A stretch of DNA of 64,000 nt from an uncultured Helicobacter sp. (GCA_949287835.1 CASEHV010000011.1:62001-126000), one strand, 5' to 3'. Shown: positions 31,094 through 51,360, counted from the first letter of the stretch. Program-made: numbers and translations. Notes: generated from the letters alone by a model not told the origin.

Positions 31094-32725
31094 ATGGTTA
31101 GATTTGAGCTTTTTTATGATAAGAGATTTGATTCTAAAGCGCTGGATTCTTTGTTTGAGAAAATTGTAAGAGAGAAACGCAGTGATATAAGTGGCTATTA
31201 TGAGTTGCCATATCTTGATAAAACATTGCATGAGTGTATGGCTTATATGCAGGAGATGGCAGATTTTCTGGGATTAGATTCCCAGAATCAAGTCATTTTG
31301 AATAAAAACGAAATATCTTTGCAGAATCTAGATTCTTCGACTTCGTCTCAGAATAACTCTTTACGTCATGTTGAGGCTTTAGCCGAAACATCTAGGAATC
31401 TGGATTCTAAAGATTCTTCGACTGCGTCTCAGAATGACGGATGGAGTCATGTTGAGCATAGCGAAACATCTACATGGAATCTAGATTCTAAGAATCATGA
31501 TATGTTTTCTGAAAGCAAAGTCATATTGAGCGAATGTGAAACATCTCTTGATTCTACAAAATCACAAAATCAAGATGCAGATTCCAAAAAAACTTTAGAA
31601 TCTAAAAAAGAAACCAAAAAAACACAAAACAGACAAGAGACATATTTCACAAAGAAAGAAAACACAACCCTAAAATCCATCATCATCATAGGCATAGGCG
31701 GTAGTTCTCTTGGATTAAAAGCCATAGACACCATGCTATGCCACCTGCCAAATAGGCGCGATATTTCCCTGCGATTTTTGGAGCATACAGACCCCATTGA
31801 GATACAAAAAGCGTTAAGCGGCATTAATTGTGATGAGAGTCTTTTTATTATTATCTCAAAGTCTGGGCTAACCATAGAGACGACTTCACTTATGAAATAC
31901 TGCATTCATACATATAATCTTTTAGAGAGAAAGCGTCATCTGCTAGTCATTAGCGATGAGGGTTCGCCACTGCATAGATGGGCAGATGAGAGGGGTATTT
32001 ATAGTATTAGTATTAAACCAAATGTGGGTGGACGTTTTAGTGTGCTTTCTGCTGTGGGAATTGTGCCTTTAGCACTGCTAGGCTATGATGTGAGAGCTAT
32101 TTTGCAAGGCGCAAGGGAGCTTCAGGATAGCTTTATGCAAAGGCAAAGTGAGCATTTATTGCAGAAGGCATTATTCCTAGCGGATAATCATGAAAGAAAG
32201 ACTATTAATGTGCTTTTCTCATACTCTAGCGTTTTTCGTGATTTTAATCTTTGGTATGTCCAGCTTTGGGGTGAGAGTCTTGGTAAAAAGAGTTGTGGCA
32301 ATAAGATGGGGCTAACGCCCATTAGCCTTATTGGCAGTATCGACCAGCACTCTTTCTTGCAGTTAATATTGGAGGGGAAAGAAGATAAGAGTGTTACAAT
32401 GCTAGGGGTGGATTGGAGTGATTTTTGTGGGGTTAGCATTCCAAATCTTAGTATGGAGGGCATGGAGAGTAGCGACTTTGTCAATGGTATATCGTTTGCA
32501 AAGCTACTACACTCTCAGCAAATCGCTACGCAAAATGTCATAAAAAGCGAGGGCATTCCACTAGATTCCATACAGATGAGTGCCTTGTGTGAGAGTAATG
32601 TTGGCTCTCTTATTATGTATTATCAGCTACTTACCTCATGCGTGGGCTGCTTATTTGATATAGATACATATAATCAACCAGCAGTAGAGAGAGGTAAGAG
32701 ACTGCTTAGGGAGATGCTTAGGTGA
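31094..32725 (+). CDS. pgi: Glucose-6-phosphate isomerase with in-frame repeat insert
   Basis: 543 aa from ATG 31094 (GGAG 6 nt upstream; earlier in-frame starts lie inside nth). Pgi signatures: IIIIGIGGSSLGLKA at about 195-209, HTDPIEI, ISKSGLTIETT, the SVLSAVGIVPLAL region, and a C-terminal QPAVERGKRL. It interconverts glucose-6-phosphate and fructose-6-phosphate. Residues about 61-183 are a foreign low-complexity block (DSSTSSQN, HVEALAETS, DSKDSSTASQND units, then Lys/Thr/Gln-rich) lying just before the first strand of the sugar-isomerase domain. Without it the protein would be about 420 aa, near the short epsilonproteobacterial form. The frame is intact, so the enzyme is probably still made. 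Confidence 0.9.
   Translation: MVRFELFYDKRFDSKALDSLFEKIVREKRSDISGYYELPYLDKTLHECMAYMQEMADFLGLDSQNQVILNKNEISLQNLDSSTSSQNNSLRHVEALAETSRNLDSKDSSTASQNDGWSHVEHSETSTWNLDSKNHDMFSESKVILSECETSLDSTKSQNQDADSKKTLESKKETKKTQNRQETYFTKKENTTLKSIIIIGIGGSSLGLKAIDTMLCHLPNRRDISLRFLEHTDPIEIQKALSGINCDESLFIIISKSGLTIETTSLMKYCIHTYNLLERKRHLLVISDEGSPLHRWADERGIYSISIKPNVGGRFSVLSAVGIVPLALLGYDVRAILQGARELQDSFMQRQSEHLLQKALFLADNHERKTINVLFSYSSVFRDFNLWYVQLWGESLGKKSCGNKMGLTPISLIGSIDQHSFLQLILEGKEDKSVTMLGVDWSDFCGVSIPNLSMEGMESSDFVNGISFAKLLHSQQIATQNVIKSEGIPLDSIQMSALCESNVGSLIMYYQLLTSCVGCLFDIDTYNQPAVERGKRLLREMLR
31275..31640 (+). repeat. A/B palindromic repeat block inserted in pgi
   Basis: Contains B-like units at about 31291-31317 (degenerate), 31362-31391, 31446-31472 and 31529-31556, and A units at 31331-31356 and 31410-31438, separated by AATCTAGATTCT-type spacers, followed by a Lys/Gln/Thr-coding tail. 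All are plus-strand in the gene's own frame. Confidence 0.85.
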
Positions 32726-34616: not shown

Positions 34617-35009
34617 ATGGATATAGCACCTATGGCTTTGCACCCATATTTTGGGGCATTTGTGATGTTTGCCCTTACGCTTGTGGCATTTAATATGACT
34701 TTTTATTTGCAGAGGAATATTTCTAGGAAACTAGCAAATAAACGCAATGATAAGCTAAAGATTTCCCCTTATGAATGCGGTCCTATCCCTATCAAGCAGC
34801 CAAATAAGCTTTCTAATCAATTCTTCATGGTAGCCGTGCTTTTCGTGCTTTTTGATGTTGAGGTCATATTTATGATTCCTCTAGCACTTGAGTATCGGAA
34901 TCTAGGCTTGTTAGCATTCTTGGAGTTAAGCATTTTTATCGGTATTTTAATCATCGGATTCTTATATGAATGGAAAAGGGGAGCATTAAAATGGCAAAGT
35001 ATCAAGTAG
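34617..35009 (+). CDS. nuoA: Complex I subunit NuoA
   Basis: 130 aa, three membrane helices, with the conserved loop [12 protein letters not shown] and the helix [14 protein letters not shown] carrying the acidic pair. It is the small membrane subunit at the joint between the hydrophilic and membrane arms of NADH:quinone oxidoreductase. First gene of a 15-gene operon running to nuoN; nuoB overlaps it by 19 nt. Confidence 0.94.
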
Positions 35010-35506
35010 AAAATACGCAGTCTTCCCTGCGTGGTATGCCTGTGGCACTCGGCAGTATTGATAAGATTCTAAATTGGGGTCGTAGCAACTCTCTTTGGCC
35101 TCTCACCTATGGTCTTGCATGCTGTGCTATTGAGATGATGGCAACGGGTGGCTCTCGTTTTGACTTTGATAGATTTGGCATTATTTTTCGCGCTTCTCCT
35201 AGACAGAGTGATGTGATGATTATTGCTGGGACGCTTACAAAGAAACATGCCGAGTTTACACGACGTCTATACGACCAGATGCCAGAGCCAAAGTGGGTAG
35301 TCTCTATGGGTAGCTGTGCTAATACTGGCGGTATGTTTAATACATACGCCACCGTGCAGGGCGTAGATAGGATTATTCCAGTGGATATTTATCTGCCCGG
35401 TTGCGCACCGCGCCCTGAGACATTGCAGTATGCCATGATGGTCTTGCAACAAAAGATTCGTTCAAGTAAGGCACTGCCGACTAATACGCCCAAACGTCTA
35501 GTATAA
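34991..35506 (+). CDS. nuoB: Complex I subunit NuoB
   Basis: 171 aa from ATG 34991 (GGGGAG 7 nt upstream; an in-frame ATG at 34970 is less likely). All four N2 cluster ligands are present: tandem Cys44-Cys45 (LACCAIEMM), Cys109 (GSCANTGGM) and Cys138 (PGCAPRPE). NuoB carries the last [4Fe-4S] cluster, which hands electrons to quinone at the NuoB/NuoD interface. Confidence 0.95.
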
Positions 35507-35516
35507 GGGAGAGATA

Positions 35517-36320
35517 ATGATAAGAAGACGGACGCCACACAAAGATGTGCAAAAAAAGGTCTATCACACAGATAGATTCTATGAGCCACTTTTAACAGAG
35601 AAGATTCCATTAGAGGATAGTGCCTACAAAGATGTCTTTGAATATTTGAATACTAGAGTAAAGCTAACAGAGAGTTATGTAGAGCTAGGGCAGGCAGTCT
35701 TTTATGTAAAAAAAGAGGATGTGCGAGAGACATTGATACTTCTAAAATCTTATGGCTATAACGTCCTAAGTGAGATGAGTGCGATTGATAATCTTGCCAT
35801 AGATGGCACCTTCCATATTTTCTATCAGCTAAATTCACACAATAAATCTTTTGCCAACTGTCGCCGTATGCGTGTAAAATGCGTGATAAGAGAGCTAGAG
35901 AGTATGCCTAGCGTTAGCGATATTTTACTGGCGGCTAACTGGAGTGAGAGGGAATGCTATGACATGTTTGGCATAAAGTTTGAGAATCACCCCTTTTTAA
36001 AGAGGATTTTAATGCCGACAGATTGGGTTGGATTCCCACTTTTAAAGAGCTATCCACTAAAAGGAGACGAGTTTGCCGCATGGTATGAGGTGGATAGAAT
36101 CTTTGGCAGAGAATATCGCGATACCATAGGTTGCGAGCAAAGAGATTCTGCTAGAGTGGATAGGGGGGATAGTATTAATTTTGCCCGCATAGGCAGGGAA
36201 GTGGCTAAGGGTGAGATTCCAAGCGATTCTATTCATAAGATTACATATCAAGAGGAGAGTAAGCCGCCTATTTTGCAGAAATTCCCAGATAAGCCAAAAG
36301 AGATGGAAAATAGAATCTAG
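35517..36320 (+). CDS. nuoC: Complex I subunit NuoC
   Basis: 267 aa. 30-kDa-subunit signature in WSERECYDMFGIKFENHPFLKRILMP and the following PLLKSYPLKGDE. NuoC is a peripheral-arm subunit with no cofactor that packs against NuoD. It is separate from nuoD, unlike the nuoCD fusion of enterobacteria. The N-terminal about 30 residues are basic and extended; the C-terminal tail (after about 205) is charged and variable. Confidence 0.92.
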   Translation: MIRRRTPHKDVQKKVYHTDRFYEPLLTEKIPLEDSAYKDVFEYLNTRVKLTESYVELGQAVFYVKKEDVRETLILLKSYGYNVLSEMSAIDNLAIDGTFHIFYQLNSHNKSFANCRRMRVKCVIRELESMPSVSDILLAANWSERECYDMFGIKFENHPFLKRILMPTDWVGFPLLKSYPLKGDEFAAWYEVDRIFGREYRDTIGCEQRDSARVDRGDSINFARIGREVAKGEIPSDSIHKITYQEESKPPILQKFPDKPKEMENRI

Positions 36321-36346
36321 CATAGCAAGGGATAAGAGGTTTATAA

Positions 36347-37576
36347 ATGGCACAATATTTTAATAAATTACAAACGCAGTTTGAGAATGTAATTTTTGAG
36401 CAAGAAGATAGCAATATGGTAATCAATCTAGGTCCCCAGCACCCAAGTGCGCACGGGCAGCTAAGGCTAATCCTAGAGCTAGATGGTGAAATGGTAAAAC
36501 GTGCAGTAGCCGACATAGGCTATCTGCATAGAGGCGTTGAGAAACTAGCGGAAAATATGATTTACAATGAGTTTATGCCCACCACAGACCGTATGGATTA
36601 CACCGCTGCTAGTGCAAATAATCATGCTTTCGCCCTAAGTGTAGAAACTCTGCTAGGCGTAGAAGTGCCACGTCGTGCTAAAGTCATTCGCACCATACTT
36701 TTAGAGCTAAATCGCATTATTTCCCACTTTCTTTTCATTGCCACACATGCCCTAGATGTCGGTGCTATGAGTGTGTTTTTGTATGCCTTTAAGGGTAGAG
36801 AGTATGTGCTTGATATGATTGAGGATTATTGTGGTGCTAGACTAACGCATAATTCCATTCGCATAGGCGGTGTCCCCCTTGATGTGCCTAATAATTGGTT
36901 TGAGAATATAAAAGAATGCTTAAAAGAAGTGTTGCAGACTACGGATTTAATTCGCGGCTTACTAGATAAGAATAGAATCTGGCGGCTACGACTTGAGGGC
37001 ATAGGGAAGATTGACAAGGATTTGGCACAGAGTTTAGGACTTAGCGGTGTTATGCTACGAGGTTCTGGAATCCCCTTTGACATTCGCAAAGAAGAGCCTT
37101 ATGAGATTTATGATGAGCTAGATTTCCAAGTGCCATTTACAGATTCAGGAGACTGCTTTGGTCGCTATGTACTTTACATAGAAGAGATTTATCAATCCTG
37201 CTCTATCATTAATCAAGCTATGGAGATTTACAAGGATACGACTACTCAGCTACTAGCACATGCCCCCGAGTATATCTCTGCACCAAAAGAGGATATTATG
37301 ACGCAGAATTATTCCTTAATGCAGCATTTCGTGCTTGTAACGCAGGGTATGCGTCCCCCAAAAGGTGAGGTATATCGCCCTACAGAATCGCCAAAGGGAG
37401 AGCTAGGATTTTTCATAAGCTCTCTTGGGAATCCATACCCCCACAGAGTGAAGGCAAAAGCACCTAGCTTTTATCATCTCCAAGCCGTAGAGCATATCCT
37501 GCCCGGTCATCAATTAGCCGATGTCATTACTATCGTAGGTAATAGTAATATTATCTTAGGCGAGATTGATAGATAG
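36347..37576 (+). CDS. nuoD: Complex I subunit NuoD
   Basis: 409 aa, 49-kDa subunit, with [15 protein letters not shown] (quinone-site His), [29 protein letters not shown], and a C-terminal LGEIDR. It forms the quinone-binding cavity with NuoB. The small HP1264-like gene follows after 10 nt. Confidence 0.95.
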
Positions 37577-37586
37577 GAGAGCGTTT

Positions 37587-37814
37587 ATGAAGAGGTTTGA
37601 TTTACGACATTTAAAGAGTGATTTTTATGACAAGATGGGGGAGATAATCGACCGTGAGCTAGATAGCGGCGAGATAGGAATCTTCTTATTTGAGAAAGGG
37701 GAGCATGAGAATGTAGAGAAAAGTGCCATGTATGTTAAGGAGAGGGGGCATACATTGATGAATTCTCTGCAGTTTAATCATGTCGATTGGACTATAGTGA
37801 TGAAGAAGGCTTAG
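37587..37814 (+). CDS. HP1264-like small subunit in the nuoE position
   Basis: 75 aa from ATG 37587 (GGAG 7 nt upstream). The start MKRFDLRHLKSDFYDKM and the end SLQFNHVDWTIVMKKA match H. pylori HP1264 (76 aa, same position). There are no cysteines at all, so unlike true NuoE it cannot hold the [2Fe-2S] cluster N1a. In Helicobacter and Campylobacter this protein and the next replace NuoE and NuoF, and NADH is not thought to be the electron donor in those species; flavodoxin has been proposed for Campylobacter. Confidence 0.85.
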   Translation: MKRFDLRHLKSDFYDKMGEIIDRELDSGEIGIFLFEKGEHENVEKSAMYVKERGHTLMNSLQFNHVDWTIVMKKA

Positions 37815-37883
37815 GATTATTAGCTATGGCAGATATGGAATCTAAGCATTTTTCTAGTGTTTTCTGTTTAGAAGGAGCCTAAC

Positions 37884-40772
37884 ATGGTAAAAAAAGATAA
37901 TCCAAGTATTCCTTATAGCATAAGCAATTTCCCAAAAGTCGTGCCAGATGTGAAATTCTTTAGCACAGAGCCAATCCAGCAAGAGATTAAAGCTTTCGTA
38001 GGTTGGGACGGCATAAAAATCTTTGATGAAAACCTAGATATTTTAGAAACATTAAAAATCTATGCAAAGCAGTATCAAAACTATGCACAATCCTGCGGTA
38101 GATGCACCCCGGGCAAATATGGCGGCAAGGTTTTATACGAGCTTTTAAATAAGATTCAAAACGATAGCAGTGCAAGTGAAAGCGATATTGACAAGCTAAA
38201 AGAAGTATGCGAACTCATGACTTTCACCTCAAAATGTGAGGTTGGTAAGACGACGCCAAAGCCAATTTTGCAAATTTTGGAATCAAATCCCGAGGTTTTT
38301 TACAATGCTATAGAAAATAAAAATAAAACTAAAAGCAGAGAGGTGGATTCTAAGAGAGAGACGACACTTTGGAGTGTGGATTATGGAATTAAAAGAGATA
38401 TTACTTTACCTGCGGATTCTAAAGATTCTTCACATTCGTTCAGAATGACGGATTCAAATACCCCTCCCCCCAGCACCCTCCCGCAAGGTGAGGAGGAGTT
38501 ATCTCCTCGCCATGTTGATAATGGTGCAACAAATGTTTCTCAAGGGGGATTTTCACACCGTCATGTTGAGGCGTTAGCCGAAACATCTCTTCAAAATATA
38601 GATTCCACAAAAGGAACAAATCATCAAGCCAACATGGAATCCAAATTGTCGCAATCTCAGAAAATTCATGAAAAAGAGCAATCAGACAGCAGTAGTGCTG
38701 TCTTTGGATTACAAGGTGTGCGTGGAGAACACAGCACTCCCCCGATAAGCGAAAAAAGCGGCGGCTTTTTTGGCGTGCGGGGGAGCGGGGAGGGGGAGCA
38801 GCCCTTTTTTGCGCCAAAAGAAGAGAATTTGCAAAAAGGAGGGATTAAAGAAATGAATCTAGATTCTCAAGAAAATAAGAATCTAGATTCTAACAACACG
38901 CAAAAAGATTCTTCACATTCGTTCAGAATGACGAATTTAGGTCATGTTGAGCGAAGCGAAACATCTTTTGATTCCCAAAAAGACGTCATGTTGAGCGGTA
39001 GCGAAACATCTATTCAGAATCTAGATTCAAAAGATTCTTCGCCTTTGGCTCAGAACGACGTTATTACATCTCAAAATGACGTGGCTTTTAAGACTCAAAA
39101 TGAAACAAAAACACAGAAAAACCAAAATGAAATAAAAAATCAATCTCTCATAAATAGCCAGGAGCAGAATATTTTCGAGCCATTAGAAAGATACAAAAGC
39201 GCTATTAAAACAACCATTAAAAATGTAAGTTACATATCTAAAATCACCGCCCCATGCACAGATGAGTGTCCATCGCGTGTGGATATTCCCGCCTATATTG
39301 AGGGGGTAAAGGATATGCGTTATTTGGATTCCCTCTCTAGCACAAGAAGTAGTATGCCTTTAGCACAGGTATGTGGTCGTGTGTGTCCGCATCCATGTGA
39401 GAATGCCTGTAGGAGGGCATTGCTAGATGAGCCTATTAGCATTATGGAGCTAAAACGCGTGGGTGCTGATGTAGAGTTTAGCCTAAAGCAAAATGCCAAA
39501 CTACCCTCTTATGCTAGTCCGAATAATATAAAACAAGATTCTAGTAATTATAAGGGTATAAAATCTGTGTGCGTCATTGGTGCAGGTCCTGCGGGACTTA
39601 GCAGTGCGTATTATCTAGCCCTGCGTGGCATAGAGGTCGATGTTTATGAAGCATTACCCGTGTTAGGTGGTGAGGTAGCTGTGGGTGTACCGAATTATCG
39701 TATGCCTATTAGAGAATACAACCATGATATAAATTCACTCAAAGAAATGGGCGTTAGATTCCATGTTAATTATGAAGTGAATAAGGATAATATAAAAGAG
39801 CTAGAGAGTAGGCATTCTGCCATAGTCATAGCGGTCGGCACGAGGGCTAGTAAGAGGCTTGGTTGCAAGAATGAGAATGTCAATCTTAGCGGATATTTAC
39901 CCGCGATAAAGTTTATGGATAGTGTGAATCTAGCACAGAAATTCAACATAGGAGAATTGCCAAATCTACATGGTAAGAAAATCGTGTGCGTAGGTGGCGG
40001 CTTTACTTCTATGGACGTTGTGCGGTGCTGCATTCGTCTTGGGGCAAGTAGCGTTACTATGCTATATCGCAGGGACGAGGCTACTATTATCAAAAATACT
40101 TCAAAAGAGGAATATGAGGAGGCATGTGAGGAGGGCGTAGTATTTGAGTTTTTGAGTGCGGTAGATGAGATATTGGAGGATAATGGCAAATTATCGGGGC
40201 TAAAAATCAATCGCTACGAGCTTGTGAAAAGCTCTGAAAATCCAAAAGGAGAGCTAAAGCTAGTGAGTGGCGGGGAGATGATGGAGTGCGATATTTTGAT
40301 ACCTGCGGTTAGTCAAGAGATGGATTTTGAGTTAGATTCTGATTTTGGCGTGAATGTTACGAAATGGAAAACTATCGAGGTTGATAATGCTAGTTATTCT
40401 ACGCATAGAAAGGGCGTTTTTGCCGCTGGGGACTGCGTTAGCGGACCGCTTACTATCGTAAATGCTGTGGGGCATGGTAGGCGTGTGGCAAGTGTGGTAG
40501 CAAATTATATTAAAAGTGGCAGAGTGGAGATTAGCGATGATGAACGCATGGAGGATATTTTAAAGCAAATAGGAGTCTTTGATAGCAATAGAGAGGTGCA
40601 TGGATTCCTAAGTGGCAATAAAAGAGAGGTGAGTAACAAGTTATCGCCTAATTTTAGAAACAAGAATTTTGATGAAGTGAATTTCGGTCTTAGTCGAGAG
40701 GACGCGCTAAGTGAGGCATCACGCTGTATGCGGTGCTATTACATTAGTATGTGTGTGATTGGAGAGGCTTAG
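37884..40772 (+). CDS. NuoF-like iron-sulphur domain fused to GltD-like FAD/NAD(P)H oxidoreductase, with repeat-derived linker
   Basis: 962 aa in the nuoF position. Residues 1-145 correspond to the HP1265/NuoF C-terminal cluster domain: SCGRCTPGKYGG (Cys71, Cys74) and Cys118 in SKCEVG. The third ligand of the canonical CxxCxxC is Gly77. Residues about 150-430 are low-complexity DNA-repeat translation. Residues about 450-530 are a GltD-type 2x[4Fe-4S] domain (CTDECPSRVDIP; CGRVCPHPCENACRR). Residues about 560-900 are an FAD/NAD(P)H oxidoreductase (GAGPAGLSSAYYLA, GGGFTSMD, LYRRDE, FAAGDC), ending in a CMRC-x5-C tail. GltD modules oxidise NADPH or NADH and pass electrons to iron-sulphur partners, so this protein could feed complex I. 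AGGAG lies 6 nt before the ATG. Confidence 0.85.
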   Translation: MVKKDNPSIPYSISNFPKVVPDVKFFSTEPIQQEIKAFVGWDGIKIFDENLDILETLKIYAKQYQNYAQSCGRCTPGKYGGKVLYELLNKIQNDSSASESDIDKLKEVCELMTFTSKCEVGKTTPKPILQILESNPEVFYNAIENKNKTKSREVDSKRETTLWSVDYGIKRDITLPADSKDSSHSFRMTDSNTPPPSTLPQGEEELSPRHVDNGATNVSQGGFSHRHVEALAETSLQNIDSTKGTNHQANMESKLSQSQKIHEKEQSDSSSAVFGLQGVRGEHSTPPISEKSGGFFGVRGSGEGEQPFFAPKEENLQKGGIKEMNLDSQENKNLDSNNTQKDSSHSFRMTNLGHVERSETSFDSQKDVMLSGSETSIQNLDSKDSSPLAQNDVITSQNDVAFKTQNETKTQKNQNEIKNQSLINSQEQNIFEPLERYKSAIKTTIKNVSYISKITAPCTDECPSRVDIPAYIEGVKDMRYLDSLSSTRSSMPLAQVCGRVCPHPCENACRRALLDEPISIMELKRVGADVEFSLKQNAKLPSYASPNNIKQDSSNYKGIKSVCVIGAGPAGLSSAYYLALRGIEVDVYEALPVLGGEVAVGVPNYRMPIREYNHDINSLKEMGVRFHVNYEVNKDNIKELESRHSAIVIAVGTRASKRLGCKNENVNLSGYLPAIKFMDSVNLAQKFNIGELPNLHGKKIVCVGGGFTSMDVVRCCIRLGASSVTMLYRRDEATIIKNTSKEEYEEACEEGVVFEFLSAVDEILEDNGKLSGLKINRYELVKSSENPKGELKLVSGGEMMECDILIPAVSQEMDFELDSDFGVNVTKWKTIEVDNASYSTHRKGVFAAGDCVSGPLTIVNAVGHGRRVASVVANYIKSGRVEISDDERMEDILKQIGVFDSNREVHGFLSGNKREVSNKLSPNFRNKNFDEVNFGLSREDALSEASRCMRCYYISMCVIGEA
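38415..39145 (+). repeat. A/B palindromic repeat block plus GC-rich repeats inside the NuoF/GltD-like gene
   Basis: A' units (26 nt, translated DSSHSFRMT) at about 38421-38449 and 38907-38933; B units near 38560-38588, 38940-38966 and 38985-39011; an A unit near 39033-39060; then several TCAGAATGAC-like short units to 39130. Two GC-rich segments (38458-38510 and 38690-38815) of different origin lie between them. The whole block replaces what would be a linker between two domains. Confidence 0.85.
38737..38785. repeat. Nested palindrome inside a coding sequence
   Basis: Outer arms CTCCCCCG (38737-38744) and CGGGGGAG (38778-38785); inner arms AAAAAAGC (38752-38759) and GCTTTTTT (38764-38771) with a 4-nt loop. 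The inner hairpin alone looks like an intrinsic terminator, yet it lies mid-gene in a long operon. Confidence 0.75.
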
Positions 40773-40784
40773 TAGAGGTGTGAT

Positions 40785-43700
40785 ATGAGTGAGAGACGTC
40801 AATTTATCATTAATATAGATGGCAGAGAATGCCTAGCAAATGAGGGCGAGACTATCTTAAATGTCGCTAGGAATAATGGCATAAACATTCCTACTCTATG
40901 TGATTTAAAGAAGCTATCACCCACAGGGGCGTGTCGCATGTGTGTCGTGGAGCAGAATGGAAATATTATCGCTAGTTGTAAAAGCTATGTGAGTGGCGAG
41001 ATTAGCGTAAAGACGAACACAGAGCGACTGCAAAAATATCGCAATCAAATCATGAGTTTCCTTTGTATCAATCACCCGCTAGAGTGCGGTGTGTGTGATA
41101 AGAGTGGCGAGTGTGAGTTGCAAGATAAAGTGCTAGAATCAAAAGTCGATATTCAACCATTCTTTGCCCTGCAGAAGAAAAATGACTTCGTGCATTTTAC
41201 AAATAAGATTTATGATGAGAGCCTCTGTATCGTGTGTGAGAGATGTGCTAGGACATGTAATGAGTATGTGGGTAATAATGTCCTAAGTGTGCTATCTGGT
41301 GGCTTTAGCTCTAAGATTGGCGTGAATTTTGACGCTTACTGTGAGGACTGCGATGAGTGCGTTAGTGTATGTCCTACTGGGGCTATGATTTCTAATCGAT
41401 TTATTTATACTAGCAATGCGTGGGAGCTAGAGAAAGTGCCTTCCCATTGTCTGCACTGCTCTATGCGGTGCGATTTGTATTATGAGATTAAGCATAATAT
41501 AGATTCCAAAAAGGAAGTGTATAGAATCAAAAATGACGCACATATAAAGCAGCTTTGCCACGCTGGGCGGCATTTTTTCATGCGGACAAATGAGGCAGCT
41601 ACCTTTACTGACTATGAGGTAGATATTGAGGATATTTTATCAAATGTAGATTCTGTGCGACTTAGCGTAGAGTGTAGTAATGAGGAAGCCTTGATTGCAA
41701 ATATGTTAGCAAAACATGCGGCTAAAAAGCTTTTCTGTGATGATGCTCTGCTTTTTAAGGAATTTGAAGATATTGTAAAAGGCGTGAGTGGCTTTTATTG
41801 TGGAGTGAATTTTAATAAAGATTCCATGTCTCAAATGTCTTTTGATTCTAAAGAAAATGTCATGTTGAGTGATAGCGAAACATCTTTAGAATCCATGCAA
41901 AAAGAAAATCAAAATTTAGATTCTAAAGATTCTTCGCCTACGGCTCAGCATGACGGTGTGATTCGCGCTCAGAATGACTTAGCACAGACTCAGAATGTCA
42001 TTGCGATTCATTCTCACAATGATGTGGCAGAGATTCATGACGACAGTGTTGTTATGTCTCAAAATAACTTAGTAAAACAGAATCCACATTTCAAACCCAC
42101 AGATAAAAATATAAGAACACTGCTAGATAATGCAAAAGTAGTAATCAATCTTGGTTGTTATATGTTTGATGAAATTCCTATTTTGCGTAGCGATTTATCA
42201 AAACTTGCCATAAAAAAGGGCGTGAAAAATATTTGGATTAATGCTATAGCAGAGTCTCGCTTTCAGAGTGATTTAGAGATAGTATATGATGTGTATAGTG
42301 AGCCACAGGTTAGCATTGTGCTATTAAAGCTATTGTGCGATTTTATAGACACAGAGGGTATTAATGTGCCTTTTGATATGTGCTTAGTGCGTGATTATCT
42401 TAGCAGTATTGACTTAGGTGATGCCATAGCACTTAGTAATATTAGTGATTATGAGATGGAGCGTCTAGGTGAGTTAATGTTTAGGAGGCATTCTATCATT
42501 ACGCCACATCATGAGGAAATCATTACGCAAGATAGGGTAGTGATATTAGTTGGCATGGATTTTTATAAATCGCCTCATGCTAGTGTGATAGCAAATATTT
42601 TAGGCATGTTTGATTGCATGGATTTTATCGATGTGGCAGTGATTCCTTATGGGAATGCAAAGGGTATTGCTAACATTTGCGATTTGACTAAAGATAATGC
42701 TTCATATCAAGGCACACTTGGCATTCGTACATTGGGCGAGTATAGCATTTCACCATTTCCTAAGTTTATGAAAGTTTTAGATTCTAAAATGATGAGAGAT
42801 TCTTCGCTAAACGCTCAAAATGACGTTGTAATTCACTCCCGCAATGACGGGGCAAAGCCTCAGAATGACTCGTGGGTAAAGATTCAGAATAACGGTGTTG
42901 TTATATCTCGGAATGACAATACACATGATTCCCAAAAAGACGTGGATTCTTCGGCAAAGACTCAGAATGACAAATTAGCTATGAATGACACGTCCGCCGT
43001 CATGTTGAGCGGTAGCGAAACATCTATGCAGAATCAAGATTTTAAAGATTCTTCGCCTACGGCTCAGAATGACAATGTGATTCACGTTCGGAATGACTTG
43101 GCGGTAAAGATTCGAAATGACATTGCGATTCGCGTTCAGAATGATTTAGCACACACTCAGAATGACAATGCAATTAACTCTCGGAATGATGGGGTAGCAC
43201 AGAGTAGAAATAACGGTGTGATTAAAAATCAGAATGACAAATCAGAGATTAAAAATCATGTTGCAAACACAACCAAGAATGACCTAGTATCCAAAAATCA
43301 CCCCTCTAAACAAAATACTTCATCAAACAAATACACTCACACAACACAGAGTGATAATAAGCACATTCCTACATTGCCACTGCAGTTTATGGAAGGCACG
43401 TTTGTTGATATAAATAATCATCTGGTTAAAATTGCCCCCGCATTTATCAATGATGATTACACATTGTCTAAAGAGGGGGACGATGGTTTGCTAGATTTAC
43501 TTGATATATGCAGGGATTATTTGGATTTGGATTCAGATTATATTATAGAGTTATGCGAGGAGCTACCCTTTAATAATATAGCTTTTGATTCCCTATCTAG
43601 CAGGAGCAAGGCATATTTAGAGAATGCAGAGCCTAAGCCATTAGCACTAGATAGCATTTCTGTATCAGAGAATCAAAGCGGGGCATTTATCTATCATGCG

Positions 43701-43925
43701 GGGCTAAGTGGGAATCTTAGTATGCCTAATAATGAGCTAAGGGTATCGCGGCAGTTTCTATCTGCCATGCGGTTAAGGGAGGAGGAGCAGATATTACTAG
43801 AGCTTGGCAATGTGGTGTTAAGTGTTAGAGTCTGTCTTATGCCTACTCTAAGTGGCATGGTAGGGATTTTGAGTAGCGATGAGATACTAGATAGTAGAAA
43901 ATATTTTGATTTTAAAAGAGTATAG
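40785..43925 (+). CDS. nuoG: Complex I subunit NuoG, first tandem copy, with two repeat inserts
   Basis: 1046 aa. The N-terminal [2Fe-2S] domain has Cys39, Cys50, Cys53 and Cys65. Then come the His/Cys motif of cluster N5 (NHPLECGVCDKSGECELQD), two more [4Fe-4S] sites (CIVCERCARTC; CEDCDECVSVCPTGAM), and an N7-type set (CLHCSMRC ... LCHAGRHF). The remaining molybdopterin-like domain is interrupted by low-complexity inserts at about residues 345-430 and 665-835 derived from A/B repeats. Without them the protein is about 790 aa, normal for NuoG. It is separated from a second, divergent nuoG by zero bases (TAG-ATG). Confidence 0.93.
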   Translation: MSERRQFIINIDGRECLANEGETILNVARNNGINIPTLCDLKKLSPTGACRMCVVEQNGNIIASCKSYVSGEISVKTNTERLQKYRNQIMSFLCINHPLECGVCDKSGECELQDKVLESKVDIQPFFALQKKNDFVHFTNKIYDESLCIVCERCARTCNEYVGNNVLSVLSGGFSSKIGVNFDAYCEDCDECVSVCPTGAMISNRFIYTSNAWELEKVPSHCLHCSMRCDLYYEIKHNIDSKKEVYRIKNDAHIKQLCHAGRHFFMRTNEAATFTDYEVDIEDILSNVDSVRLSVECSNEEALIANMLAKHAAKKLFCDDALLFKEFEDIVKGVSGFYCGVNFNKDSMSQMSFDSKENVMLSDSETSLESMQKENQNLDSKDSSPTAQHDGVIRAQNDLAQTQNVIAIHSHNDVAEIHDDSVVMSQNNLVKQNPHFKPTDKNIRTLLDNAKVVINLGCYMFDEIPILRSDLSKLAIKKGVKNIWINAIAESRFQSDLEIVYDVYSEPQVSIVLLKLLCDFIDTEGINVPFDMCLVRDYLSSIDLGDAIALSNISDYEMERLGELMFRRHSIITPHHEEIITQDRVVILVGMDFYKSPHASVIANILGMFDCMDFIDVAVIPYGNAKGIANICDLTKDNASYQGTLGIRTLGEYSISPFPKFMKVLDSKMMRDSSLNAQNDVVIHSRNDGAKPQNDSWVKIQNNGVVISRNDNTHDSQKDVDSSAKTQNDKLAMNDTSAVMLSGSETSMQNQDFKDSSPTAQNDNVIHVRNDLAVKIRNDIAIRVQNDLAHTQNDNAINSRNDGVAQSRNNGVIKNQNDKSEIKNHVANTTKNDLVSKNHPSKQNTSSNKYTHTTQSDNKHIPTLPLQFMEGTFVDINNHLVKIAPAFINDDYTLSKEGDDGLLDLLDICRDYLDLDSDYIIELCEELPFNNIAFDSLSSRSKAYLENAEPKPLALDSISVSENQSGAFIYHAGLSGNLSMPNNELRVSRQFLSAMRLREEEQILLELGNVVLSVRVCLMPTLSGMVGILSSDEILDSRKYFDFKRV
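41828..42072 (+). repeat. Repeat block 1 in first nuoG
   Basis: B unit at about 41858-41885 (ATGTTGAGTGATAGCGAAACATCT), A unit at about 41922-41956, then four or five short TCAGAATGAC-type units spaced about 27-30 nt. Encodes VMLSDSETS and DSSPTAQHD followed by QND-like repeats. Confidence 0.85.
42778..43290 (+). repeat. Repeat block 2 in first nuoG
   Basis: The longest expansion: about fifteen short units with core CAGAATGAC or a variant (CGGAATGAC, CGCAATGAC), mostly 24-30 nt apart, with one full B unit (42999-43025, VMLSGSETS) and one full A unit (43045-43074, DSSPTAQND) in the middle. It looks like amplification of the 3' half of unit A. Confidence 0.85.
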
Positions 43926-46900
43926 ATGAAAATAGTTATTGAAAATAGAGAGTTTGAGTGCTCAAGTGAGGATACGATATTAGATGTCGCAAGGCGCAAT
44001 GGGATTAGGATTCCTACCATTTGTTACCTTAGTGGTTGTAGTCCGACATTGGCATGTAAGATGTGCATGGTCGAGGTCAATGGTAAGAGGGCATATAGCT
44101 GTAATGCAAAGGTAAAAGATGGCATGAATGTCCTTGTCAATACCCCCGAGATTTTGAGTGATAGAAAAGAGATTATGACGACATATTGTGTCAATCACCC
44201 GCTAGAGTGTGGCGTGTGTGATAAGAGCGGTGAGTGCGAGTTACAGGATTTTACCCTGCATACAAAGGTCGATACTCAGCTATTTGGTCTAAAAGAGGCA
44301 GATAAAAAGTCATACTCTTTTGCACAAAGCTTTTACGACCCTGCCTTGTGTATCATGTGCGAGAGATGCGCTACGACATGCAAGGATAATATTGGCGAGA
44401 GTAATCTAAAAGCAGGTAAGGCAAATCTTTTTACGCCAGATAATTATAAAGATTCTATGGGAAAAGACCCCTACTCTGTATGGGCAAAGAGACAAAAGGG
44501 TTTAATAGAGTTTGTGGGTGCTAATGAGTGTAAGGACTGCGGGGAGTGCATATCAGTATGCCCTGTGGGTGCTATGACTTACAAGGATTTCACATATACT
44601 AGCAATGCGTGGGAACTACAAAAGGTAGAATCTACCTGTGCGCTATGCCCTGCGGGGTGCAATGTCATTTATAACGTAAAGCACCTAGATGTAAAGGGCG
44701 ATGTGGATAAAGTCTATCGTGTGCAGAATGATTATTTGTATAATCCAATCTGTGGTGCAGGTCGCTTTGTCTTTGATAATGTCTCTCTTGGCAGTAGAGA
44801 TATGGGGGCAGCACTTGAGGCATTAAATAGGGCAGATTCTATATATCTTGGAGGGAATGTTAGCAATGAGGAGGCGCTTTTAGCACATCTTTTAGCAAAG
44901 TTTCTTGACATTCCGCTATTCTCTTATGAGGCTAGATTGTATCAGAGTTTTTATGGACTACTAGATTCTAGTGCTAAGATGGATTATATTGCTACATTCG
45001 AGGATTTTAAAAATGCGAATGCTTTTATAGCCTTGCACTGCTATTTTAAGTATGACTCCCCCCTTGTGCGATATAGAATCAATAATAATCTAAAACTGCA
45101 GAAAAGCACTCAGCTAATTAATATTTCATTATTTAAAGATTCCCTGCTGCAAGGGCTTGGCAAAAATGCGGTAGATATTATAGGTAGTGCGGGTAGCATT
45201 AGTATGAGTGGAATCTTAGGACTAGTGTTTGCCAATAATCTTATCGATGAGTTTTTAGAGGAGTTCCCTAATGCTTTGAGATATTTAGATGATTATGTAG
45301 CTAAAACTAAGGATAGCAGCGAAGAATCTAGTGAGGACTCCAGCGATAAACCTAGCTTTAGCAATGCGGAATTAGCGGTGTTAGAGTCACTAGGACTAGC
45401 GGATTTCTCAAGCTTAAAATTAGCTAAAAAAGGTGGAATCCTGCTTTTATCTGCCCAGAGCATAGAGGATTTTATTGATAGTATTGCCTATGATAGCTAT
45501 GAGATAGAGCTAGGGCAGCAGAGCATACAGGAGGCTGTCGGCACTACGATTGCACAAGATATTGCAAAAGGTGCTAGTGATTCCCTGCTAGATATGGAAT
45601 CAAGGGTCGAAATCTTCTCTAGGATAGTGAATTTTGTATGTCAAAAGCTAGAGCTAAAGACATGCTATATTCCAAAAGATTCTAATACCATAGGCATTGC
45701 AAATCTCTGTGCTTTACCTAGCTTATCTTTGCATAAAAGTTTTTCTCCTAGCTATTGTATCGGCATTAGGACTAGCGGACATTTTATATTTGATTCTAAT
45801 CTTTCTAAATCTAGTGTGAAACCAGATTTTGCCCTCCCCAGCCTTATGCAGAATGAGGGTAGCATTACAAATATGGAAGTGCGACTTCTACCATTAAATC
45901 CTAGCGTAGCGTATCTTGATGATAATTTAGACGATGCACTTGACTTTAGCGATGTGGCATTAGAGATTCTAAGTGGCATTGATGATAGCACTCTTGAGGG
46001 GGATTTATCCTCTGTGCGTTATATCGGGGATTTGAGCGTGCTTTTGCATAAATATGCCTTTTATGGTAGTAGTGAAAAAAGTTGCCTTGTGTATAGAGAT
46101 GTGAGATATGAGAATCTAAAAAGTCGCTATGAGAGAGATGGTAGAGATTTAAGGGGGTATAGGCTGGAGTATAGGGATTCTTCGGCAAGCCTTGCGAATG
46201 ACGGTGTTGTTATATCTCAGAATGACATTGTGCTTAAAACTCAAAACGACGGTGCGTCCATGTTTCTAAATGACACGTCCACCGTCATGTTGAGCGGTAG
46301 CGAAACATCTCTGCAGAATCAAGATTCTAAAGAAAATGTCGTGTTGAGGACAGAGTCAAAAACATCTTTACAGAATCAAGACTTCAAAGATTCTTCGCTT
46401 AACGCTCAGAATGACGTTATGGCTACGACCCGCAATGACATTGAGGTTAAAACCCAAAATGACAACTTTATTAATACAAAAAACGAAGGTATTGTTAAAA
46501 CTCAAAACGACGTTGTTGCTACATCTCAGAATGATTTAGTTGTTAATATTCAGAGTGAAAATCTAGCCACATCTCAAAAAGAGCAAGAAACATTACAAAA
46601 CTCTAAGCTACATATAACCTTTTATCTAAAAATGAGGAAAGAAATGCAACCATGCAATGCAATAAAGCTAGAATCTCAGAATCATTTCAACCATGAGACC
46701 CTAAGCAGCGGTAATCTCCAATCAAAAAGCGGGATTTATACAAGTGCTGCATATCTAAAAGAGCTAGGGTTGAAAGAGGGAGATTATGTGAGTGTGAAAG
46801 GTAAGAGCGGTAGCATTACATCTCAAATCTATGTGGATTATGATTTGCAAGATTCTATATTGCTAATATCACCCATGATTTGCGAGGTAGATCAGGTATT

Positions 46901-46964
46901 TGATGATAGATTTTATGCTATGGTAGAGATAGAGCCTTGTAGATTAGAATCTAGTGCCATGTAA
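43926..46964 (+). CDS. nuoG: Complex I subunit NuoG, second tandem copy, with repeat insert
   Basis: 1012 aa. It has the same domain order as the first copy: [2Fe-2S] domain (CYLSGCSPTLACKMC, then Cys in YSCNAKV), NHPLECGVCDKSGECELQD, CIMCERCATTC, CKDCGECISVCPVGAM, and CALCPAGC ... CGAGRF for N7. Overall it is clearly diverged from copy 1, so the duplication is not recent. Residues about 749-890 are A/B-repeat low-complexity sequence; without them it is about 870 aa. A short acidic Ser-rich run (KDSSEESSEDSS) lies near residue 460. Both copies keep all cluster ligands, so both could conduct electrons. nuoH follows after 9 nt. Confidence 0.92.
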   Translation: MKIVIENREFECSSEDTILDVARRNGIRIPTICYLSGCSPTLACKMCMVEVNGKRAYSCNAKVKDGMNVLVNTPEILSDRKEIMTTYCVNHPLECGVCDKSGECELQDFTLHTKVDTQLFGLKEADKKSYSFAQSFYDPALCIMCERCATTCKDNIGESNLKAGKANLFTPDNYKDSMGKDPYSVWAKRQKGLIEFVGANECKDCGECISVCPVGAMTYKDFTYTSNAWELQKVESTCALCPAGCNVIYNVKHLDVKGDVDKVYRVQNDYLYNPICGAGRFVFDNVSLGSRDMGAALEALNRADSIYLGGNVSNEEALLAHLLAKFLDIPLFSYEARLYQSFYGLLDSSAKMDYIATFEDFKNANAFIALHCYFKYDSPLVRYRINNNLKLQKSTQLINISLFKDSLLQGLGKNAVDIIGSAGSISMSGILGLVFANNLIDEFLEEFPNALRYLDDYVAKTKDSSEESSEDSSDKPSFSNAELAVLESLGLADFSSLKLAKKGGILLLSAQSIEDFIDSIAYDSYEIELGQQSIQEAVGTTIAQDIAKGASDSLLDMESRVEIFSRIVNFVCQKLELKTCYIPKDSNTIGIANLCALPSLSLHKSFSPSYCIGIRTSGHFIFDSNLSKSSVKPDFALPSLMQNEGSITNMEVRLLPLNPSVAYLDDNLDDALDFSDVALEILSGIDDSTLEGDLSSVRYIGDLSVLLHKYAFYGSSEKSCLVYRDVRYENLKSRYERDGRDLRGYRLEYRDSSASLANDGVVISQNDIVLKTQNDGASMFLNDTSTVMLSGSETSLQNQDSKENVVLRTESKTSLQNQDFKDSSLNAQNDVMATTRNDIEVKTQNDNFINTKNEGIVKTQNDVVATSQNDLVVNIQSENLATSQKEQETLQNSKLHITFYLKMRKEMQPCNAIKLESQNHFNHETLSSGNLQSKSGIYTSAAYLKELGLKEGDYVSVKGKSGSITSQIYVDYDLQDSILLISPMICEVDQVFDDRFYAMVEIEPCRLESSAM
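46170..46600 (+). repeat. Repeat block in second nuoG
   Basis: Starts with a degenerate A unit (GATTCTTCGGCAAGCCTTGC, 46178-46197), B units at about 46283-46310 and a decayed one at 46336-46366, an A unit at 46387-46416, then seven or eight short CAGAATGAC-type units to about 46575. Encodes VMLSGSETS, DSSLNAQND and many QND/QNE repeats. Confidence 0.85.
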
Positions 46965-46973
46965 GGAGAGATA

Positions 46974-47960
46974 GTGAGTGCCTTTATTATTGAGACGATT
47001 ATAAAAGTCCTTGTAGTCGTGCTTGTGTTTTCATTTTTAGGTGGCTTTGCGACCTATATTGAGCGGAAAGTGTTAGGATTTTTTCAACGCAGACTAGGAC
47101 CTATGTATGTGGGACCTTATGGATTATTGCAGTTTGCCGCAGATGCTATTAAGCTTTTTACCAAAGAGGATATTTTGCCTCGTGGGGCAAATAAGATTAT
47201 TTTTACCCTAGCGCCAGTCGTGGCTATGGTGAGTGCGATGACATCTATGGTAGCAATTCCATTTTTCCCCGAGTTTGAGATTTTTGGCTACAAGGTAACG
47301 CCCATTATTTCGGATATAAATGTGGGAATCCTATTTTTCATATCTGTGGGTGCAGTGGGAATCTATGCACCACTTTTAGCGGGACTTAGCAGTGGGAATA
47401 AATGGAGCTTGATAGGGGGGGCTAGGGCATGTATTCAGGTTTTAAGCTTTGAGATTGTTACAGGGCTATCTGTGCTTGCGCCTATCATGCTTGTAGGTAG
47501 TCTTTCATTGGTCGCTATGAATAGCTATCAGAGTGGTGGCTTTTTTGATTGGCTAGTCTTTAAACAGCCTTTGGCATTCGTGATTTTCCTAATTGCTGGA
47601 TATGCGGAGCTAAATAGGACGCCATTTGACTTACTAGAGCATGAGGCAGAGATTATTGCGGGATACTGCACGGAGTATAGTGGTCTTAAATGGGGTATGT
47701 TCTTTATCGCAGAATATGCACACATGTTTGCCTTTGCTTTCGTGGTTAGCCTTGTGTTTTTGGGCGGGTTTAATCCTCTGTGGTTTATACCCGGTGGCAT
47801 TGCTATTATTCTAAAAGTATGCTTTTTCATATTCTTGTTTATGTGGGTTAGGGCTACACTTCCGCATGTGCGACCAGACCAGATTATGGATATGTGCTGG
47901 AAGATTCTAATGCCACTTGCGTTAATTAATGTGCTTGTAACAGGCTTTATATTATTGTAA
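46974..47960 (+). CDS. nuoH: Complex I subunit NuoH
   Basis: 328 aa starting at GTG 46974 (AAGGAGAG upstream). About eight membrane helices; signatures [33 protein letters not shown], and [21 protein letters not shown]. It forms the entry of the quinone channel and links the peripheral arm to the proton-pumping subunits. All recognisable conserved segments are present. Confidence 0.95.
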
Positions 47961-47970
47961 AGGATGTCTT

Positions 47971-48579
47971 ATGGAAGAGAAAAAAGAAGTTGTAGAATCT
48001 AAGCAAGATTATTATTTTGTCAAAACAGATAATACGCCCAAAAATGCCTTTGATAGCTTTAAGAGGACGTTAAAATCAACCGTTGGATTAGACATTCTAA
48101 AGGGACTAGGGCTAACTATAAAGGAATTTTGGAGTAAGCCTGTAACGGTGAATTATCCACTAGAAACTCAGCCTCTAAGTCCTCGCTATCGTGCCGTGCA
48201 TAATCTACAAAGAATGCTAGAATCTGGCAGTGAACGTTGCATTGGTTGCGGCTTGTGTGAAAAAATCTGCACGAGTAATTGCATTAGAATCCTAACCCAC
48301 GAGGGCGATGATGGTAGGAAAAAGATAGATTCTTATACAATAAATCTTGGTCGTTGCATTTACTGCGGATTGTGTGCGGAGGTTTGCCCAGAGCTTGCCA
48401 TTGTCATGGGGAATCGCTTTGAGAATGCTAGTCAGCAAAGAGCACATTTTGGATTAAAAGAGGATTTTTTAAAAGACATGGAAGAGGCTAAATTCCACAA
48501 TCAAGCCGAGTTTGATGGCTTTGGTAGCATTAGACCTAGTGCCGATAATGAAGTCAAGCAAACGCCACTTGATTATTAG
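47971..48579 (+). CDS. nuoI: Complex I subunit NuoI
   Basis: 202 aa, an 8Fe ferredoxin-like subunit with two complete motifs: Cys90-Cys93-Cys96-Cys100 and Cys129-Cys132-Cys135-Cys139, plus Cys104. It carries clusters N6a and N6b between NuoG and NuoB. The N-terminal 50 residues are polar and the C-terminal tail is short and charged. Confidence 0.95.
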
Positions 48580-48612
48580 ATTCCATATTGATTTTTGCAA
48601 GGAGCGTTGCTA

Positions 48613-49134
48613 ATGTTTGAGGTCATTGCGTTTTATGTTTTTGCTGCTTTGACACTTTGTGCATTTCTTATTGTCGTTATGTCGAATAATATTTTGTATG
48701 CACTCAGTGCGCTTGCATTTGGCATGATTTTGGTATCTGGCTTTTTCTTTCTGCTACATGCCGACTTTTTGGGAATCGTGCAAATCACGGTTTATACAGG
48801 AGCAGTAGTCGTTATGTATGCCTTTGGAATGATGTTTTTTGATTTGAATAAAGAAGTCAAAGAGAGATTCCATAATCAATTCATAGTATGGCTTATCGTG
48901 GCAGTCTTTGCCCTAAGCTTATTTGTCTCTTTTGGCAAGGTTTTCGTGCCAGAGGAAGTAAAGGTTGCTGATATGAGTTTATCTGCATTATCGCATCTGT
49001 TATTTAAAGACTATATCTTAGGCTTTGGTGCTGTAACAGTCATGCTATTAATGTCTATGATAGCGGGTGTAGCGGTGGGAGCGCACAAGCCTGAGTTCCC
49101 AAAAGATTCTGATAATGAGAAGTTGAGGAAATAG
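48613..49134 (+). CDS. nuoJ: Complex I subunit NuoJ
   Basis: 173 aa from ATG 48613 (AAGGAG upstream; an in-frame TTG at 48595 is unlikely). Five membrane helices with the family segment LGIVQITVYTGAVVVMYAFGMM. It packs between NuoA/K and NuoH and contributes to the membrane-arm joint. Confidence 0.93.
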   Translation: MFEVIAFYVFAALTLCAFLIVVMSNNILYALSALAFGMILVSGFFFLLHADFLGIVQITVYTGAVVVMYAFGMMFFDLNKEVKERFHNQFIVWLIVAVFALSLFVSFGKVFVPEEVKVADMSLSALSHLLFKDYILGFGAVTVMLLMSMIAGVAVGAHKPEFPKDSDNEKLRK

Positions 49135-49164
49135 AATGCGTTTAGAAATACAGGAGAGTTTGTG

Positions 49165-49467
49165 ATGATTACACTGGGGCATTATCTGATGTTTAGTGCT
49201 ATTATGTTTAGCATTGGACTATATGGGATACTTAGACGCAAGAATATCTTGTTATTGCTATTTTCTACCGAGATTATGCTAAATGCTATTAATGTCGCTT
49301 TTGTAGCCATAGGACATTATAGATATGATTTATCTGGGCAGATTGCCGCTTTATTTATTGTGGCTCTAGCTGCAGCCGAGGTTGCCATAGGACTTGGGCT
49401 TGTCTTGCTTTTGTATAGGAAATACAAGACTTTGGATATAGATGAGCTTAGTAATATGCGAGGTTAG
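49165..49467 (+). CDS. nuoK: Complex I subunit NuoK
   Basis: 100 aa from ATG 49165 (a GTG one codon upstream is in frame). Three helices with RRKNILLLLFSTEIMLNAINV (conserved membrane Glu) and AAEVAIGLGLVLLLYR (second Glu). Part of the proton-translocating membrane arm. nuoL follows after 2 nt. Confidence 0.94.
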   Translation: MITLGHYLMFSAIMFSIGLYGILRRKNILLLLFSTEIMLNAINVAFVAIGHYRYDLSGQIAALFIVALAAAEVAIGLGLVLLLYRKYKTLDIDELSNMRG

Positions 49468-49469
49468 AT

Positions 49470-51347: not shown

Positions 51348-51360
51348 GCAAGGAGTAGTT

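Follow-up and report, generated by a model that had tools for sequence, protein, structure and literature searches.

Which electron donor feeds complex I in Helicobacter pylori, in Campylobacter and in the vent Campylobacterota, enzymes in which the NADH subunits (NADH, reduced nicotinamide adenine dinucleotide; NADPH, its phosphate; NAD(P)H, either of the two) are missing, is a long-standing question, and the candidates under discussion have included flavodoxin, ferredoxin and NAD(P)H. Modules of the StnC type are known from their families to oxidise NADPH. For the complex I of C. jejuni, flavodoxin is the electron source, with involvement of Cj1574c (NuoY) and Cj1575c (PMC4178425). Replacement of nuoEF by a nuoXY pair has been described (PMC6682613). 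In StnC, the flavin adenine dinucleotide (FAD) is a non-bifurcating flavin, and electrons follow the path NADPH-FAD-C7-C6-C5-C4-C3 to a NuoF-type subunit, which they reach via NuoG-type clusters (PMC10482914). We analysed a stretch of 64,000 nucleotides (the window) from an uncultured Helicobacter sp. (GCA_949287835.1, CASEHV010000011.1:62001-126000), in which a complex I operon contains a gene fusing a NuoF-derived domain to a GltD-like module (37884..40772, + strand), followed by two nuoG genes. The fusion and the first of these, NuoG1, probably make up a module through which pyridine nucleotides feed electrons into the epsilon complex I of Campylobacterota.

The fusion gene is one uninterrupted open reading frame of 962 amino acids, from an ATG at 37884 to a stop codon at 40772, and AGAAGGAG is found upstream of its start. 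Three Pfam families are matched above their cut-offs: PF10589 (NADH_4Fe-4S, residues 68-137, 5.7e-16), PF14691 (Fer4_20, residues 455-532, 4.2e-21) and PF07992 (Pyr_redox_2, residues 561-865, 1.1e-27), which bears out the preliminary description of this DNA in so far as it proposed a complex I input domain fused to a complete GltD-type FAD/NAD(P)H module. The operon, made up of the genes from 34617 onwards in a Helicobacter-type genome of 1.72 Mb, reads nuoA-B-C-D-X-fusion-G1-G2-H-I-J-K-L-M; apart from the fusion it is a normal nuo operon, and 34617-53166 holds nuo genes only, with no GltB partner among them. Silent sites are saturated in a comparison with a relative of the same genus and replacement differences per site are few, 0.15 in the N-terminal domain and 0.11 in the GltD part, so that both halves are under purifying selection. 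The gene is real and conserved far beyond chance; an artefactual or chance reading frame is ruled out by conservation in 126 genomes together with this selection.

Residues 440-955 make up a complete GltD-like module of the 2x[4Fe-4S]/FAD/NADP type. Its iron-sulphur (Fe-S) domain (Fer4_20; 39246..39479, +) carries Cys458, 462, 497, 501, 505 and 509 as well as Lys524, and is followed by a double Rossmann region (39564..40478, +) with GAGPAG for FAD and GGGFTSMD...YRR for NAD(P), in which PF07992 and the alignment to NfnB and StnC identify two dinucleotide-binding folds, one for FAD and one for NADP(H). A C-terminal EVN.G....EA.RCMRC segment (40677..40739, +) supplies Cys948 and Cys951, the counterpart of the N-terminal cysteine pair of GltD and NfnL. 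The eight cysteines of the Fe-S sites and one lysine are invariant in 83 aligned sequences, and YRRDE and the C-terminal RCMRCYYI are invariant in 85 fused proteins. Counted on the alignment, the lysine (83/83; Lys524 here) falls on K170 of StnC, where NfnB has a glutamate. Mapped on solved structures, the motif R..NF.EVN.G....A..EA.RC..C is C-terminal in the fusion, in StnC and in two NfnABC A subunits and N-terminal in NfnL, and the cysteine pair itself (RCMRC, 85/85) is placed as in 9bov_A, 8oh5_C and 9n5u_A. Both sequence and fold single out the NADPH arms of NfnABC and StnC, at about 30% identity, as the best relatives in the PDB; a full-length AlphaFold model has a mean predicted local distance difference test score (pLDDT) of 54.5 and is usable locally only, its top fold matches still being proteins of the StnC/NfnABC type.

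With GltD and NfnB(L) the module shares its fold, the FAD and NADP sites, two [4Fe-4S] clusters and the YRR motif, but it has the first cysteine pair at the C-terminus and a lysine for the glutamate of NfnB, and the operon has no glutamate synthase large subunit. Curated GltD cut-offs are not reached (gltA 264/472 bits, gltD_gamma 225/483 bits); the top NCBIfam hit, to subfamily PRK12771, scores 366 bits against a cut-off of 516 and is followed by many GltD families, and a search of plasmids returned at best GltD-like proteins only about 27-33% identical. An ordinary GltD adjoining the nuo genes was rejected on the lack of gltB in the operon, the other cysteine layout, the lysine ligand and scores far under the GltD cut-offs. 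These sequence features assign the module to the StnC/NfnA type, with a different fusion partner. It has in common with StnC and the A subunit of NfnABC (Sporomusa Stn; Caldicellulosiruptor and Thermococcus NfnABC) the GltD-type FAD/NADPH domain, the two [4Fe-4S] clusters and the C-terminal EA.RC..C pair, and with StnC also the lysine ligand. In those systems, however, the GltD domain is an insertion in a chain that also contains NuoG, and the partner is a bifurcating NuoF-type subunit carrying flavin mononucleotide (FMN), whereas here the GltD domain is fused to an Fe-S remnant of NuoF, NuoG1 has a gene of its own and there is no FMN domain.

The YRR motif after the second dinucleotide fold, which had been likened to that of GltD, is indeed common to the NADPH enzymes GltD, NfnB and StnC, and occurs in 85/85 fused proteins. 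This invariance speaks against NADH as the physiological donor, with the same module replacing the lost NADH site of NuoF; we consider that reading improbable, even though the motif alone gives no certain nucleotide preference and the gene occupies the position which in other complex I operons belongs to the NADH-oxidising subunit.

The N-terminal domain (residues 1-149; 37884..38330, +) is recognised by PF10589, the C-terminal Fe-S helical domain of canonical NuoF, and by PDB matches to NuoF-type chains. Models of NuoF match residues 35-153 with their last quarter alone, residues 35-149 corresponding to the Fe-S domain at the NuoF C-terminus, and find no FMN/NADH-binding domain. The likeness to canonical NuoF (51 kDa) is thus confined to the helical Fe-S domain at its C-terminus: the FMN/NADH domain is absent and, among the four cysteine ligands of cluster N3, Cys71, Cys74 and Cys118 are kept while Gly77 replaces the third. 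The site reads CGRC[A/T]PG in 85/85 fused proteins, always with glycine for the third ligand, and the domain may therefore be a scaffold rather than a wire. We also note a weak match to this domain (26% identity) in a family member of a genus without NuoX (L070; G092:C1:777272-777523), lying in a 414-amino-acid frame that is possibly a canonical NuoF.

The absence of the FMN domain bears on the suggestion, made in the preliminary description, of a bifurcating-type reaction. At this FAD the suggestion finds no support, given the lysine of the non-bifurcating StnC (83/83) and not the glutamate of bifurcating NfnB; elsewhere in the complex such a reaction is possible. One could envisage a bifurcating or confurcating module which passes electrons from NADPH and reduced ferredoxin or flavodoxin to menaquinone, or the reverse, with FMN on NuoX as the second flavin. 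StnC and NfnABC, its relatives, act in bifurcating complexes, HP1264 (NuoX) binds FMN (PMC6269979) and a confurcating complex I, Nuo-Bfu, has been proposed in other phyla (PMC9304861), but the bifurcating FMN domain of NuoF type is absent and the FAD domain has the features of StnC, which are non-bifurcating (PMC10482914), and we regard this reading as improbable. Nuo-Bfu (e.g. of Geobacter) resembles the present system in being a complex I with a transhydrogenase/hydrogenase-type input module (PMC9304861), but it keeps NuoE/NuoF-type subunits with FMN and NADH and lacks a GltD domain; a BfuB/NuoF-type FMN subunit is not part of the locus described here.

The same architecture does occur in other Helicobacter, a check which the preliminary description had proposed. 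Ten of the 14 genomes of the window's genus contain the fusion, and the four that lack it comprise two incomplete genomes (67 and 86%) and two good ones. Across the family it is found in genera g1, g9, g10 and g13 only and is lacking from about a hundred genomes, including every genome from the H. pylori-type genus g2. Sampled across the phylum, the fusion is present in 126 of 397 Campylobacterota genomes and 33 of 68 genera, at about 50-55% identity, and nearly always forms a single open frame of some 640-700 amino acids; among the named loci are Sulfuricurvum, Sulfurovum, Nitratifractor, Sulfurimonas, Hydrogenimonas and several Helicobacter sp. This family- and phylum-wide occurrence rules out a species-specific or recent fusion: the fusion is an old and common form of complex I in the phylum, and the fused form is probably ancestral.

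The fusion is consistently accompanied by a second NuoG. NuoG1 (40785..43925, +) is by profile comparison a paralogue of NuoG2 (43926..46964, +), which in turn is the orthologue of the single NuoG in H. pylori/Campylobacter-type operons (hhalign with the NuoG of short operons, E 1e-313; NCBIfam PRK08493 above cut-off). NuoG1 retains the ligands of a [2Fe-2S] cluster, a His-Cys3 [4Fe-4S] cluster, two further [4Fe-4S] clusters and an N7-like site, which makes it a credible partner in electron transfer and not a relic. Among the operons compared first, a fused gene has two nuoG downstream and a short gene at the nuoF position has one, in every case; with 20 regions added, 44/44 operons with complete core genes follow the same rule. 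The link also holds in each of five independent pairs on supported branches (sign test p 0.0625, the lowest value that five pairs can reach). Among 80 named fused loci, two nuoG are present in all 69 that reach far enough downstream, the other 11 running off their contigs; 66 of the 69 were scored as NuoG1 plus NuoG2, and in three both copies are nearer to NuoG2. Fusion and NuoG1 have also been lost together in two good genomes of the window's genus (G004, G008), in which the nuo operon is broken up; neither they nor NuoY could be found there. On this genomic evidence NuoG1 is the obligatory partner of the fusion, a point which, like the origin of NuoY discussed below, had escaped the preliminary description, otherwise sound on the architecture.

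In G004 and G008, nuoD, nuoX and nuoG2-N lie in at least three different places, with nuoX isolated (L223, 11576-11821, -; L224, 1925-2152, +; L254; L255). In another genome (G120, a 2.11 Mb single contig, genus g13), NuoG2 has a frameshift after about residue 309, giving frames of 309 and 537 amino acids, next to an intact fusion and NuoG1 (L211, 6381-8745); the frameshift is either a sequencing error or real.

Operons of the H. pylori/Campylobacter type have the operon itself, NuoX, NuoG2 and the membrane arm in common with that of the window, but neither the fusion nor the Fe-S half of NuoG1 is present in them, and flavodoxin is their reported donor (PMC4178425). The H. pylori-type locus was anchored by a NuoX identical to HP1264 at 73/74 positions; in the window, too, NuoX (PF16514) is part of the operon, while no short NuoY replaces NuoF, the homologue of NuoY being the C-terminal half of NuoG1. 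NuoY, the short protein encoded at the nuoF position, is 230-339 amino acids long, lacks a CGxC motif and matches no Pfam family above cut-off. It had been proposed that the N-terminal domain of the fusion is this short protein; profile comparison refutes this, as NuoY does not match the fusion (probability 1%) and instead matches the C-terminal half of NuoG1 with probability 100 (E about 5e-59 to 1e-58), the match to NuoG2 being far weaker (6e-19). The "NuoF" of H. pylori and Campylobacter is, by these profiles, the leftover of a second NuoG and no NuoF.

On a tree of NuoD+H+I+L, the fused and short states change seven times, at least five of them on supported branches, and the grouping of all short operons in one clade is rejected (p 7e-52; p 2e-57 within the family). 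Loss of the module in one event is thereby ruled out on the nuo-core tree. A tree of the NuoG1 C-terminal half with NuoY, from a short alignment with long branches, gives p 0.11 for a single short clade. These trees are most simply read as several losses of the fusion together with the Fe-S half of NuoG1, the C-terminal half being retained; a single truncated allele may instead have spread by exchange, because the NuoG1-C/NuoY alignment does not reject a single loss. The idea that the module "restores" NAD(P)H oxidation finds no support: the fused form is widespread and probably ancestral, and it is the short form that looks like a repeated reduction. That the stripped-down lineages keep the C-terminal half of NuoG1 suggests a docking role for it, perhaps for flavodoxin, independent of the NADPH module.

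This retained half, beside nuoG2 in the reduced operons, also argues against the view that fusion and NuoG1 constitute a separate soluble NADPH dehydrogenase, e.g. an NADPH:ferredoxin or NADPH:flavodoxin oxidoreductase, which would be co-expressed with complex I and exchange electrons with it via ferredoxin or flavodoxin without docking. Geobacter SfrAB, the likeness to which is by published description only (PMC7483475), and archaeal Nso would be comparable enzymes; NuoG1 is a distinct paralogue, and dispensable for complex I in the many lineages that do without it. However, where intact, the fusion is always within the nuo operon between nuoX and nuoG2, and its NuoF-derived domain has no obvious use outside complex I. 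We consider a soluble enzyme unlikely.

An input module of the epsilon complex I is favoured because of the operon position, architecture, conservation in 33 genera and purifying selection, because fusion and NuoG1 occur and are lost together with the NuoG1 ligands kept, and because the NADPH arms of StnC and NfnABC, with the same C-terminal cysteine pair and, in StnC, the same lysine ligand, are its closest relatives. NAD(P)H, most likely NADPH, would reduce the FAD in the GltD-type domain by hydride transfer, and from there electrons would pass singly over the two [4Fe-4S] clusters of this domain to the Fe-S chain of NuoG1, then to NuoG2, with the NuoF-derived domain as a docking piece, and into the usual NuoI-NuoB-quinone chain. 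The FMN/NADH half of NuoF is gone, and in operons of the H. pylori/Campylobacter type the module would have been lost as well, save the C-terminal half of NuoG1 surviving as NuoY. In autotrophic members the module might run in reverse and use the proton-motive force to make NADPH. In this scheme the sequences establish the architecture, the sets of conserved ligands, the likeness to StnC and the obligatory tie to NuoG1, and from them we infer docking to complex I, cofactor content, the preference for NADPH over NADH, direction and the order of clusters. Several points weigh against it. Physical association of the fusion with complex I is deduced from gene order and co-loss; we know of no solved precedent for two NuoG in series; the NuoF-derived domain may have no normal cluster, because its N3-like site is without the third cysteine in all fusion sequences; AlphaFold confidence for the full fusion is low; and, to judge from the long disordered linker of this genus, a rigid connection between the halves is not required.

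A more far-reaching alternative, which we put forward tentatively, is a third kind of complex I input arm, with two NuoG in series joined by the relict NuoF domain and fed by a FAD/NADPH transhydrogenase-type enzyme, while a second donor (ferredoxin or flavodoxin) would enter via FMN on NuoX or the C-terminal half of NuoG1; lineages such as H. pylori and Campylobacter would have been stripped independently to this second input. If true, one complex would couple the NADPH, ferredoxin/flavodoxin and menaquinone pools. The interest of the fusion and NuoG1 lies in the donor question becoming testable: in much of the phylum a GltD-type NAD(P)H module goes with a second NuoG, the findings yield a testable order of events and a reason to reinterpret NuoY (Cj1574c/HP1265 type), and autotrophic members gain a concrete candidate for NADPH production by reverse electron flow. 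The literature searched contained no description of the fusion, of its tie to a second NuoG or of the origin of NuoY, with subscription papers outside reach and an earlier mention or annotation possible.

To the preliminary architecture should be added the low-complexity linker between the two halves (residues 150-425; 38331..39158, +). Its 275 amino acids are an in-frame repeat expansion, with units at 38424, 38562, 38907, 38941, 38985 and 39033, and pLDDT is <50 at residues 150-405. In an alignment of nine proteins the linker is long in this genus only, intermediate in g9 and nearly absent in distant relatives; it has no bearing on domain function, except that wide separation of the halves is tolerated. 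The units also occur within NuoG1, NuoG2, NuoM and a glucose-6-phosphate-isomerase-like gene of the window, and, for one 27-base unit, 63 copies were counted in the 1.72 Mb genome against 0 in a reversed-pattern control. In-frame interspersed repeats lie inside several genes at 31367-31526, 38424-39060, 41859-43180, 46239-46524 and 53029, with units such as GTCATGTTGAGCGNWAGCGAAACATCT, translated HVERSETS/LSGSETS, and also SSHSFRMT and SQND units. Such interspersed repeats resemble the Rickettsia palindromic elements in coding genes.

Upstream of the fusion, nuoX (37587..37814, +; PF16514, 114 bits) occupies the nuoE position and encodes an HP1264-like protein with a TusA-like fold; its AlphaFold model (pLDDT 85) matches the nuclear magnetic resonance structure of H. 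pylori HP1264 (2lxr, E 2.6e-6). A shrunken NuoE was rejected, as the model resembles HP1264 and TusA-type folds and has no thioredoxin fold. Some Sulfurovum-type genomes have NuoX in frames much longer than the usual 75 amino acids (G274, G276, G280 and G307, 170-205 amino acids; L177, 212 amino acids), possibly reflecting an N-terminal extension, and genome G264 has two NuoX (PF16514) genes on contigs C59 and C9, perhaps from two epsilon complex I operons.
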